A stretch of 64,000 bases of DNA from positions 1-64,000 of the forward strand of contig JAJFTJ010000002.1 of the NCBI GenBank assembly GCA_021373015.1, read 5' to 3'. Under the pieces are notes generated by a model. That model worked only from the letters and a program-made list of their open reading frames with translations. It ran no database searches and was not told the origin of the DNA. Numbering within the stretch: the first letter of the stretch is position 1; each line of letters starts with the position of its first letter. The DNA is from Nitrospiraceae bacterium (GTDB lineage: Bacteria; Nitrospirota; Thermodesulfovibrionia; Thermodesulfovibrionales; UBA1546). Both the position numbers and the translations under genes were made by a program. This document shows, one piece after another, positions 24,782 through 31,000 of the stretch.

Positions 24782-27053
<2,272 letters not shown>

Positions 27054-27054
27054 G

Positions 27055-28308
27055 ATGATTAAGAAGAACAACAATAATAATCATAATCCTAATGCGCCTA
27101 TTATCGATGTTCTTGGCAAACTGACAATAGAAGAGCTGAATATAAAAGGAAAGAGGATATTTATAAGGGCAGACTTTAATGTTCCTCTTGATGATAATCT
27201 CAGCATCACAGACGACAGAAGAATACGCTCAACACTTCCCACAATCGACTATGCAATAGACGAAGGCGCAAAGATAATAATCGGCTCTCATCTTGGAAGA
27301 CCAAAGGGCAAGGTTGATCCCAGATTTTCTCTTGCGCCTGTGGCAAAAAGACTTCAGAGGCTTCTTGGCAAAGAAGTTACATTTGCGCATGACTGTATAG
27401 GTCCGCAGGTCGAAAGCCTTGTATCAAAAATGAAGGAAGGCGACGTTGTTCTTCTTGAGAATCTGAGATTCCATCCAGGTGAAGAAAAAAACGATCCTGA
27501 ATTTTCGAAATCTCTTGCAAAACTCGCAGATTTTTATGTGAATGATGCATTTGGAGCTGCGCACAGGGCTCATGCGTCGACTGCAGGGATAGCAAAACTT
27601 CTTCCATCTGCAGCGGGATTTCTGATGAGAAAAGAGATTGAATATCTAAAAGGCACGATTCAAAATCCTGTCAGACCGCTCGTTGCCGTGCTTGGAGGAG
27701 CAAAGGTTTCAGGAAAGATTGGAGTGTTAGAAAATCTTGTTGATAAAGTTGATAAGGTTATAGTCGGCGGCGGAATGGCTTATACATTTATAAGAGCGAT
27801 GGGTTATGAAGTAGGCGATTCTCTGGTTGAAGATGATATGCTTGATTTTGCAGAGAAGATACGAAACAAACTCATAAAAAACAATGTAAAGTTTTATCTG
27901 CCTGTAGACAGCGTTATTGCCCAGACAATTGAGGCTGGCGCAGAGACAAAACTTGTTACAACGCAGGAGATACCAAAAGGATGGAGGGCGCTTGATATCG
28001 GCCCCGCATCAGCAAAACTTTTTTCAGAGGCTATTCAGGATGCAAAGACGATAATCTGGAACGGCCCGATGGGTGTGTTTGAGATGGATGCATTTTCAAG
28101 AGGGACATTTGCTGTAGCGCGCGCAGTTGCCGATGCATATGCATTAACAATAGTCGGAGGCGGAGATACTGACCTTGCTGTTCATAGGGCAGGCGTATCA
28201 GACGCCATATCATTTATATCAACAGGGGGCGGAGCATCGCTCCAGCTTCTTGAAGGCAAAGAGCTTCCGGGCATAGCGGCTTTGACAGACAGAAAAAAAG
28301 AAGAATAA
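27055..28308 (+). CDS. pgk: Phosphoglycerate kinase with Asn-rich N-terminal extension
   Basis: Glycolytic kinase, 417 residues. [58 protein letters not shown] and [14 protein letters not shown] are all in place. ATG 27055 is one base after the gap stop; a TTG at 27037 inside gap is a worse alternative. The first about 20 residues ([16 protein letters not shown]) are an unusual asparagine-rich extension; normal Pgk starts close to the [15 protein letters not shown] segment. tRNA-Val begins 8 nt after its stop. Confidence 0.95.
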
Positions 28309-28316
28309 TTTCGGAA

Positions 28317-28391
28317 GGGCGATTAGCTCAGTGGTAGAGCGCTTCCTTCACACGGAAGAGGCCGTAAGTTCGATCCTTACATCGCCTACCA
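28317..28391 (+). tRNA. tRNA-Val (anticodon CAC), CCA encoded
   Basis: The cloverleaf is complete. The acceptor arms 28317-28323 and 28381-28387 pair (one G-U). The D stem is GCTC/GAGC, and the anticodon stem CTTCC/GGAAG closes the loop TTCACAC with anticodon CAC. The T arm is GTAAG-TTCGATC-CTTAC. Discriminator A and genomic CCA end at 28391. It reads GUG codons. Its 3' half serves as the left repeat of the adjoining insertion. Confidence 0.96.
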
Positions 28392-28392
28392 T
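28347..28392 (+). repeat. Left attachment-site repeat (tRNA-Val 3' half)
   Basis: From the anticodon loop to one base past CCA this stretch recurs at 29954-29999: 44 of 46 positions match and the last 32 (28361-28392) are identical. Confidence 0.85.
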
Positions 28393-28435
28393 ATACTTTG
28401 TTTTTGCCTTCTCATAATTTTGTATCAATTATTTT

Positions 28436-28645
28436 CTAGTCCCAATCCCATAAACCATGTTGAACATTACTGGTTTTATTCGTTGAAGCTGAATTTAACT
28501 TATTTTTAACAGTCAATTTGGTTTGAACAGTTTTAATGGTTAAATCCAAATTATAATTTTCTTTTGCTCTGCAACGACTTTTAATTGTCAAAGTAGAATG
28601 AACCATTTTGCATATTCTAGAATTTATAAGCTCTGTTTTCGTCAT
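28436..28645 (-). CDS. Hypothetical 69-residue protein of the tRNA-Val element
   Basis: No family recognised. Evidence for reality is a good ribosome binding site (GGGGAG, 5 nt before ATG) and ATGA overlap with a preceding 22-codon ORF that has its own site. The protein has three spaced copies of a short pattern (TLTIKS, DLTIKT, KLTVKN) and an acidic aromatic end (HGLWDWD). It is basic in the middle and has no signal peptide or membrane segment. It could be a small toxin, antitoxin or precursor peptide; the sequence does not decide. Confidence 0.4.
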   Translation of the reverse strand: MTKTELINSRICKMVHSTLTIKSRCRAKENYNLDLTIKTVQTKLTVKNKLNSASTNKTSNVQHGLWDWD

Positions 28646-28710
28646 ACAATCTCCCCTTCATTCTTACAGAAAGCAACTATTGTTGCATTTTCAAGGATGG
28701 TTTCTTCCAT
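28642..28710 (-). CDS. Hypothetical 22-residue ORF coupled to the 69-residue ORF
   Basis: The ORF encodes MEETILENATIVAFCKNEGE plus two residues. An AGGGGAA ribosome binding site lies 5 nt before the ATG. Its TGA overlaps the next ATG (ATGA), and its last codons contain the ribosome binding site of the following gene, as in translationally coupled pairs. It may act as a leader peptide or a tiny protein. Short length keeps confidence low. Confidence 0.3.
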   Translation of the reverse strand: MEETILENATIVAFCKNEGEIV

Positions 28711-28896
28711 AACTATTCCCCTATTAATTCGAACTTTATTCTCATTTTTATGCTATGCAATATGATAGCGTTTTGAATTGCGAAAGGTTGGAGACAACCC
28801 TTTAGTCAGCTGTTCAGAAAAAACGAAAAAACGTTTAAAATCAACTAGGGAATTTTTAAATGCAGGAAAATATCACAACAAAACAGGAAATTTTTG

Positions 28897-29676
28897 TCAC
28901 ATCTTTGGCGGTGAGAAATCACAAGAATTTTTGAGGTAATTTCTAAGTTCTTCTAAAATAGAATTTGTAGGTTTATTTTTAAATAAAACCATAAATTTTT
29001 TTCTAAATTTTTCATGTTGTTTTGTTATGTCTCCTACAATGGGTGATTTTTCAATGATGCTTCTTATACGCAAATCAAAATTAAAAAATAGGTCTAGACT
29101 TTTACATAAAGGCAAGGAACTGGCAAGTCTCCTTTTCTGACTCTTATAAAAGAAATGAAAAAATTCCCATTCAGCAAGTTTTTCTTTGTAGGCAATCTGC
29201 TTTGATAGATTTACAGGCATCATCGGGAATTCTTTTTTTAATCTAGAGAGTATCTTCTTGGGATACTTTTTATTCATGCCAAAGTATTTTGCTATTTCAG
29301 ATATTCCAAGTATGCAGTTTCTTTTTATCTTGTTAATGTCTTTTTTAAGCATATAAGAGCGATTTCTCATAAGGTCTTCCCTTATATAATCATCAAAAAA
29401 GCCATATCGTTTCATTTTTCTTATAAATGCTATTCTATTTGCTTCGGATATTGTTGTCTTGCTCCTTTCAGCTTTTCTTGGGTTGCTCTGTATAGAAAAT
29501 ATCTTGCATAAATTTTTATAACCGTAAACTTTTTGTTGTCTATTTTCTTGTCTACGTTTTTCGTAAAATTCATTGAGATATTTAATGTACTGAGGAGAAA
29601 AACCAAAATAGTCTTTCCCATCTGTTACATGCTTGTTGAAAATCTTTCTTGAAGGAAATCCGCTAACCTTTCTCAT
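28897..29676 (-). CDS. Basic hypothetical protein of the tRNA-Val element
   Basis: A 259-residue, lysine- and arginine-rich protein with no signal peptide or membrane helix. The segment CILGISEIAKYFGMNKKYP followed by KKILSRLKKEFPMMP looks like a helix-turn-helix, and the overall charge suggests nucleic-acid binding. I do not recognise the family, and the tyrosine-recombinase residues are absent. The upstream ribosome binding site is weak (AGAGTGG). It is AT-rich like the rest of the element. It may be an element-encoded DNA-binding or maintenance protein, or cargo. Confidence 0.6.
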   Translation of the reverse strand: MRKVSGFPSRKIFNKHVTDGKDYFGFSPQYIKYLNEFYEKRRQENRQQKVYGYKNLCKIFSIQSNPRKAERSKTTISEANRIAFIRKMKRYGFFDDYIREDLMRNRSYMLKKDINKIKRNCILGISEIAKYFGMNKKYPKKILSRLKKEFPMMPVNLSKQIAYKEKLAEWEFFHFFYKSQKRRLASSLPLCKSLDLFFNFDLRIRSIIEKSPIVGDITKQHEKFRKKFMVLFKNKPTNSILEELRNYLKNSCDFSPPKM

Positions 29677-29738
29677 TTTTCTGCCACTCTTTTTTTGTGG
29701 TTTGCTCCTGCTCCAATAAATTGAAGTTTATTTAGGGG

Positions 29739-29759
29739 AAGGTGTAGGAGTTACACCTT
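29739..29759. other. 8-bp hairpin upstream of the element's 259-codon gene
   Basis: AAGGTGTA at 29739-29746 pairs perfectly with TACACCTT at 29752-29759 around a 5-nt loop. No T run follows on either strand. It lies 63 nt before the start of the 259-residue ORF and may be a protein-binding or regulatory site. Confidence 0.35.
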
Positions 29760-29953
29760 GTCAGCCTATATTGCCTATCTTCTAAAATTATAACGCTTTA
29801 TGCTTCAAAATATAATCCTTAACTGCCTCAGCTGAATTGTACTGTTCTTGTATAGTAGACAAGCAAAAAATAGGGAAAAGGGCAAAACGCCTTTTCTATT
29901 AATTTGCAAAGATTTGGGAAAACTTGGTATGTGGAATAATTGTTACAGGATAA

Positions 29954-29999
29954 TTCACACGGAAAAAGCCGTAAGTTCGATCCTTACATCGCCTACCAT
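29954..29999 (+). repeat. Right attachment-site repeat (partial tRNA-Val copy)
   Basis: A copy of the 3' 46 bp of the tRNA-Val region with two G-to-A differences in the anticodon-stem/variable part. The D arm and 5' acceptor strand are absent, so it is not a functional tRNA. It ends 11 bp before the moaA stop codon. Confidence 0.85.
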
Positions 30000-30010
30000 T
30001 TAAAATTTTT

Positions 30011-31000
30011 TTATCCGCCGATCTGTGACATTGTGCGGATGAGTTTTAAGGTTTTACTGCTGCTGTTGATATTATGCTTTTCGGGTTTTACTGCTATTGC
30101 AAGATTCAGAAGTCTTCTGGTTTCTTCTTCAATGTTTGTTCCTCTTAATGCAGGCTTAAGGTCGATTTCTGTCTCGGAAAAAAGACAAGGCCTTAGTTTA
30201 CCATCAGCTGTGAGCCTTAGACGATTGCATTCCTCGCAAAAGTGATGTGTTATTGCGCTTATAAAACCTACGACGCCTTTTGCATTTTCTATCCTGAAAT
30301 ATTTTGAAGGCCCGTTCTTTCTAACCTTAACAGGAGTGATTCTGCCGATCTTTTCTACTTCGGACATTATCTCATTGCACGGAACATATTTTTCAGGACT
30401 CCAGAATCCGTCTTTTCCAAACGGCATAAATTCGATGAATCTTACATGACAATCTCTGTCAATAGTTAATCTTGCAAAGTCCTGTATCTCATCAGCATTA
30501 ATATTTCGGATTGGTATCATATTTATCTTAATGGGCAGAAGACCTGCCTTTCTTGCAGCTTCAAGTCCTTTAAAAACAACATTTATGTCGCCAAGTCTTG
30601 TTATTTCTTTGTAACGCTCAGGTTTCAGAGTGTCAAGGCTGACATTGACCCTGTCAACGCCTGAATCTGCCAGCGCTTGTGCATATTTTTCCAGCAGAAT
30701 TCCATTTGTAGTGATGCTAAGATCTTCTATGCCTGCAATTTTTTTTATTTCGGATGTTAATGATGTCACATCTTTTCTTGCGAGAGGCTCTCCGCCTGTT
30801 ATCCTGATTTTTTTCACGCCAAGTTCAACAGCAGCTTTTATAACCCTGATGATCTCTTCATAAGAAAGAATGTCTTTATGCTCGATCGGATTGATTCCTT
30901 CTGAAGGCATACAGTATACACAGCGCAGGTTGCACCTGTCTGTGATCGAAATGCGCATGTAATCGATGACTCTGTTGAATCTGTCTTTTAGGCCTGACAT
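30011..31000 (-). CDS. moaA: GTP 3',8-cyclase MoaA (molybdenum cofactor biosynthesis)
   Basis: Radical SAM enzyme that starts molybdopterin synthesis from GTP, acting with MoaC. The first cluster site is ITDRCNLRCVYC (Cys23, 27, 30); the second is CEECNRLRLTADGKLRPC near residue 260. The C-terminal double glycine (QIGG), needed for activity in the family, is intact. 329 residues is normal. It begins 3 nt after cpoB, so it is read from the tol-pal transcript, an unusual position; moaC is not in the window. It would serve the molybdenum enzyme SorA. Confidence 0.95.
   Translation of the reverse strand: MSGLKDRFNRVIDYMRISITDRCNLRCVYCMPSEGINPIEHKDILSYEEIIRVIKAAVELGVKKIRITGGEPLARKDVTSLTSEIKKIAGIEDLSITTNGILLEKYAQALADSGVDRVNVSLDTLKPERYKEITRLGDINVVFKGLEAARKAGLLPIKINMIPIRNINADEIQDFARLTIDRDCHVRFIEFMPFGKDGFWSPEKYVPCNEIMSEVEKIGRITPVKVRKNGPSKYFRIENAKGVVGFISAITHHFCEECNRLRLTADGKLRPCLFSETEIDLKPALRGTNIEEETRRLLNLAIAVKPEKHNINSSSKTLKLIRTMSQIGG

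Follow-up and report, generated by a model that had tools for sequence, protein, structure and literature searches.

A 1.6-kb insertion behind tRNA-Val in a Nitrospirota genome that keeps both recombination sites and probably derives from a larger element

We analysed a stretch of 64,000 nucleotides (hereafter the window, whose positions are used below unless another contig is named) from a Nitrospiraceae bacterium; it lies on contig C2 of a 1.69-Mb assembly in 22 contigs. When pgk was compared with named records, the best matches were bins from Nitrospirae metagenomes (top match MnB_6, 78% identity), which would place the host in Nitrospirota. The sole tRNA gene of the window, a tRNA-Val(CAC) at 28317-28391, stands at one end of an insertion located between two chromosomal genes, with the following features:

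27037-28308, forward strand: pgk (phosphoglycerate kinase), the left chromosomal flank
28317-28391, forward strand: tRNA-Val(CAC), intact; the target gene
28347-28392, forward strand: attL, the 3' portion of tRNA-Val that runs from its anticodon loop through CCA and one further base
28393-29953, no strand assigned: interior of the insert, 1561 bp, 31% GC, single copy
28436-28645, reverse strand: 69-aa ORF, doubtful
28440-28456, forward strand: 17-mer TCCCAATCCCATARACC, shared with the relative G002
28897-29676, reverse strand: 259-aa orphan ORF, pI 10.1, 15% Lys
29874-29897, reverse strand: terminator-like hairpin with a T tract, close to the right end
29954-29999, forward strand: attR, the displaced tRNA-Val 3' end, with two G-to-A changes
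30011-31000, reverse strand: moaA, the right chromosomal flank

The two att copies form a direct repeat (28347-28392 and 29954-29999) that is identical at 44/46 positions. Its two mismatches, 28358/29965 and 28360/29967, are both G to A and fall, on the distal copy, in the anticodon-stem/variable-loop part; the final 32 bp, up to 28392/29999, are identical. The alignment scores 41 against a null of at most 15 across all 43 tRNA genes of the assembly, so the repeat is not a chance resemblance, and no further copy turned up in the 1.69-Mb genome when as many as three mismatches were allowed (reversed control, 0). Alignment and genome-wide count thus confirm the repeated tRNA-Val 3' half and 32-bp core given in a preliminary description of this DNA. 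The distal copy carries two changes from the tRNA sequence and the proximal copy none, which is the expectation if attR is the displaced copy, free of tRNA constraint. Both copies contain the T-stem version GTAAG/CTTAC, a version of tRNA-Val found in 0/175 further genomes from this order with two mismatches allowed in 26 bases, and therefore either the incoming att matched the lineage's own tRNA or the two copies have been homogenised.

The state of the locus before insertion is preserved in two relatives, G006 and G008, where the order is pgk, tRNA-Val, 16 bp and moaA; pgk lies upstream of tRNA-Val in all 13 of the family's tRNA-Val loci examined besides the window. At these empty sites 16 bp separate the end of the tRNA-Val repeat from the conserved end of moaA, CCGCCGAT, and the corresponding distance in the window, from the distal copy to this moaA end, is 15 bp. 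The matching junctions show that the 1561 bp were inserted precisely, by site-specific recombination, and the comparison of the tRNA-Val-moaA interval proposed in the preliminary description thus comes out in favour of insertion.

As had been described, the interior is about 1.56 kb long and more AT-rich than its surroundings (30.9% GC, against 39.7% and 39.3% in the 5 kb on each side). A search for other copies, also proposed at that stage, found the 1561 bp to be single copy in the genome and without detectable relatives. The three ORFs originally attributed to the interior reduce to one gene that exceeds chance: the 259-aa ORF is far longer than the longest ORF in 2000 shuffles (157 aa), whereas 33% of shuffles hold an ORF as long as 69 aa, and the remaining ORFs of 53 and 55 aa are shorter still and within chance. 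For the 259-aa protein nothing related was found in 60 relatives, 396 Nitrospirota genomes, IMG/VR, plasmids or phages, nor in GTDB contigs searched with six exact peptide patterns, and it had no match in Pfam, PHROGs, NCBIfam, PADLOC or PDB sequences. A structure prediction from the single sequence was poor and not usable (mean pLDDT 43); judged by eye, residues ~135-180 possibly resemble a helix-turn-helix. The reported lack of a recombinase motif holds up, as profile and sequence searches of the interior for a recombinase were empty (Pfam, PHROGs, NCBIfam, PADLOC and PDB sequences). Searches by tblastn with integrases and their neighbours returned only noise (best E ~0.02 among the matches listed), and nothing in the 1561 bp can be recognised as left over from an integrase or another phage gene.

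We checked all 43 tRNA genes of the assembly for a repeated 3' end up to 9 kb downstream (less at contig ends), and found one at three of them: Val(CAC), Ala(GGC) and Leu(GAG). The tRNA-Leu(GAG)-nfo locus is present in two 80%-identical versions, on contigs C20 and C1, and for this reason the assembly probably mixes two related organisms. Each version holds an interval between tRNA-Leu 3'-end copies:

C20, 1-1384: tRNA-Leu(GAG) scar, 1.33 kb between the two 3'-end copies
C1, 1970-2252: tRNA-Leu(GAG) scar, 166 bp, with both att copies and the same integrase tail as on C20

The interval on C20 contains an integrase C-terminus (phrog_216, 5e-8), a phage regulator (phrog_9665, 3e-16) and a fragment of a terminase large subunit (phrog_15524, 2e-28), and both intervals are clearly prophage scars in which the two att sites have been kept and which have shrunk until they are no larger than the window element. 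At tRNA-Ala(GGC) (contig C10, ~1099-1519), 0.3 kb with an intact 81-aa GIY-YIG ORF precedes an att-like 3'-end copy.

A genome outside the family supplies an integrase at the same att site:

G084, contig C19, 176-1688: tyrosine integrase gene with a copy of the tRNA-Val 3' end

In this genome, which belongs to another family of the order, a 446-aa tyrosine integrase gene ends 124 bp before a 48-bp copy of the tRNA-Val att; within the 12 kb examined, the tRNA-Val gene did not appear. This arrangement implies that autonomous elements using tRNA-Val exist, and together with the precise empty sites it supports the earlier proposal of integration into tRNA-Val by a tyrosine recombinase. A G084-like integrase was sought within the family and the candidates were set aside, long alignments being only ~25-31% identical and mostly to Xer-sized proteins.

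Within the genome itself, a search with the Pfam Phage_integrase profile gave matches in four places. Two of these are proteins of 295 and 315 aa, which would correspond in size to XerC/XerD. The only intact phage-type integrase (453 aa, contig C3) abuts a copy of the 3' end of tRNA-Sec, the gene for which is on contig C12, and we rejected it as a helper on the grounds that the att belonging to it is the end of another tRNA; the integrase piece on C20, a 72-aa C-terminal fragment at the tRNA-Leu att, was likewise rejected. The first of these belongs to an island that uses the selenocysteine tRNA gene (C3 7118-8560 and C12 114-211), and its N-terminus looks zinc-ribbon-like by eye. No integrase with a tRNA-Val att was found in the genome, so that the suggested search for one whose att matches the 32-bp core came back empty, and no tRNA-Val att was found in viral contigs (IMG/VR).

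Direct att copies also lie behind tRNA-Val in two further members of the family, with different contents. In G001, the 1.09 kb between the copies consists of a TumE-type toxin and an HVO_A0114-type antitoxin, and a ParE-like toxin with an HTH protein comes after this packet. In G010, three att copies, the middle one partly decayed, delimit two tandem packets: one of 0.94 kb with a Gp49-type toxin and an HTH antitoxin, and one of 2.6 kb with an XRE regulator and small ORFs, the two having ~55 bp in common beyond the att (81% over 92 bp). The 2.35 kb from tRNA-Val to moaA in G014 starts with the ParE packet of G001, with no second att copy detectable between tRNA-Val and moaA; this packet is 96% identical between the two genomes, against 90.6% for pgk (Fisher p = 2e-5). 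A Gp49/HTH pair also follows tRNA-Val in G002. No tyrosine integrase was seen in the packets of G001, G010, G014 and G002, and the packet ends at the relatives' tRNA-Val loci show truncated neighbouring genes. G015 has a serine recombinase gene a short way behind its tRNA-Val (contig C139, 8465-9202); no further copy of the att was detected there.

One short sequence connects the window insert to these loci. Among 176 genomes of the order, the 17-mer TCCCAATCCCATARACC occurs exactly only in the window and directly behind the tRNA-Val of G002, and in each of the two it forms the end of a short ORF (...GLWDWD); the 3' end of the 69-aa ORF in the window (...GLWDWD*) resembles the tail of a G002 gene (...NKTGLWDWDL*) at the same position. 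Since the 17-mer is an ORF tail in both genomes, some of the window DNA beside attL probably shares its origin with G002 DNA, and on this sequence likeness the 69-aa ORF is probably the remnant of a gene.

Our preferred explanation, which we hold to be probable with room for doubt, is that the insert is a CIME-like remnant of a larger tRNA-Val element that lost its integrase through internal deletion. An integrative element (a prophage or island) would have entered the 3' end of tRNA-Val(CAC) through an attP x attB exchange catalysed by a tyrosine recombinase, with the crossover presumably near the anticodon loop; attP would have restored the tRNA, and the old 3' end would have been pushed away to become attR. 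An internal deletion would then have taken out the integrase together with almost everything else, so that only attL, attR and one intact gene, that for the basic 259-aa protein, remained, and a new element using tRNA-Val could excise such a remnant in cis or supply it with an integrase in trans. The window segment would on this account once have been larger, and may retain some mobility. We infer decay because of the tRNA-Leu precedent and because no helper with a tRNA-Val att was found. Against it, the insert contains no integrase or phage debris, whereas the tRNA-Leu scars keep an integrase tail beside attL, and the relatives hold compact, intact toxin-antitoxin packets at tRNA-Val and not obvious debris.

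These packets are the chief reason to consider a non-autonomous mini-element, consisting of tRNA-Val att ends and one cargo operon, moved in trans by visiting integrases and able to stack, which we regard as possible but rather unlikely. It would account for the three att copies bounding packets of 0.94 and 2.6 kb with a shared ~55 bp beyond the att in G010, for the toxin-antitoxin pair between two att copies and the second packet after it in G001, for a packet that is more alike in G001 and G014 than their pgk genes are (96% against 90.6%, p = 2e-5), and for the use of a second tRNA, Ala(GGC), where the 0.3 kb ahead of the att-like copy include an intact GIY-YIG ORF. However, neither the genome nor IMG/VR yielded a helper integrase with a tRNA-Val att, the truncated neighbour genes at packet ends are what deletion predicts, addiction modules would outlast decay in any case, and the packets could also have spread by homologous recombination through shared flanks. 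Of the two alternatives raised in the preliminary description, the scar of a larger island is therefore the better supported, with the tRNA-Leu scars of 1.33 kb and 166 bp as precedent, while a compact unit mobilised in trans is suggested by the small tandem cassettes of G010 and G001, but no helper integrase with a tRNA-Val att was found in the genome. A stronger form of the latter, in which tRNA-Val anchors an integron-like array across the family, with integrase-free kilobase-sized cassettes (toxin-antitoxin pairs or lone orphan genes between att ends derived from the tRNA) inserted, stacked and exchanged in trans by visiting integrases and the window insert as one cassette, we consider unlikely. 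The two accounts may also apply in sequence, decay yielding att-bounded packets in which addiction modules persist and which later elements stack with or carry.

Explanations that dispense with site-specific integration fare worse. Partial duplications of tRNA genes occur, and the insert has no integrase, so illegitimate recombination could have duplicated the tRNA-Val 3' end together with local DNA; we judge this very improbable, as the interior is missing at the empty sites and compositionally foreign, the repeat starts at the anticodon loop and stops right after CCA, repeats of this type have arisen independently around other contents in G001 and G010, and an integrase gene lies beside such a repeat in G084. 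A chimeric join at the tRNA repeat would be conceivable in an assembly fragmented into 22 contigs, where the tRNA-Leu locus is present twice, in versions that come from related organisms, but pgk on the left and moaA on the right are the neighbours expected from G006, G008 and G014 and there are just two att copies in the assembly, and we give such an artefact hardly any credence.

Decay of a larger element would place the insert near islands already described. CIMEs of Streptococcus are att-bounded, have lost their integration and transfer genes, lie at the 3' end of a target gene and accrete in tandem, and are defined as decayed ICEs or IMEs (PMC5704250). The preliminary description held that a trans-mobilised mini-element with its own small cargo would be new; att-bounded islands without an integrase are already represented by CIMEs. 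The window insert resembles them in retaining attL and attR (the 46-bp repeat, with precise empty sites) and in having neither integration nor transfer genes, but differs in being very small, with one orphan gene and no conjugative or mobilisation ancestry seen; no ancestor with the same interior was found, and the analogous tRNA-Leu scar is prophage-derived. It is most likely a very small member of the known class of CIME-like islands, the strict definition of which requires descent from an ICE or IME. An autonomous tRNA-integrated island or prophage differs in having a tyrosine integrase next to the att, which the window insert does not. Integron gene cassettes are marked by attC sites and an integron integrase, and the repeats here are 3' ends of a tRNA gene.

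Among small mobile packets, dif modules of Acinetobacter are site-flanked, often carry toxin-antitoxin or resistance genes and are moved by the host recombinase XerC/D (PMC12907356, PMC13141974); they likewise have no recombinase of their own, but use dif-like sites, mainly on plasmids, where the insert uses a tRNA att, with no sign of Xer acting. Tycheposons, as characterised in PMC10872708, are tRNA-bounded cargo elements of 4-200 kb marked by a tyrosine recombinase, from which the insert, at 1.56 kb and with no recombinase, departs on both counts.

If the reading as a decayed element is correct, the locus shows for an uncultured Nitrospirota family how tRNA-gene islands shrink to kilobase scars that keep both recombination sites. 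In this family, small toxin-antitoxin packets have also made use of one and the same tRNA gene time and again; should such packets move in trans, tRNA genes would serve as simple cassette arrays without a dedicated integrase. In Dehalococcoides, 15 genomic islands at ssrA lack integration modules and were proposed to be mobilisable in cis, with a serine-recombinase module proposed and reductive dehalogenases as cargo (PMC3146451). Those loci are alike in having tandem islands behind an RNA gene, parted by direct repeats of its 3' end and in some cases without a recombinase, but the target there is ssrA, whereas here it is a tRNA, the integrase is of the tyrosine type and the cargo in relatives is mainly toxin-antitoxin. 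The additive flexible islands of Methylopumilus are also marked by tRNA-end repeats (PMC10872708) and resemble this locus in having repeated tRNA 3' ends with contents that vary among strains, but they are multi-gene regions, and the window insert is a single 1.6-kb unit.
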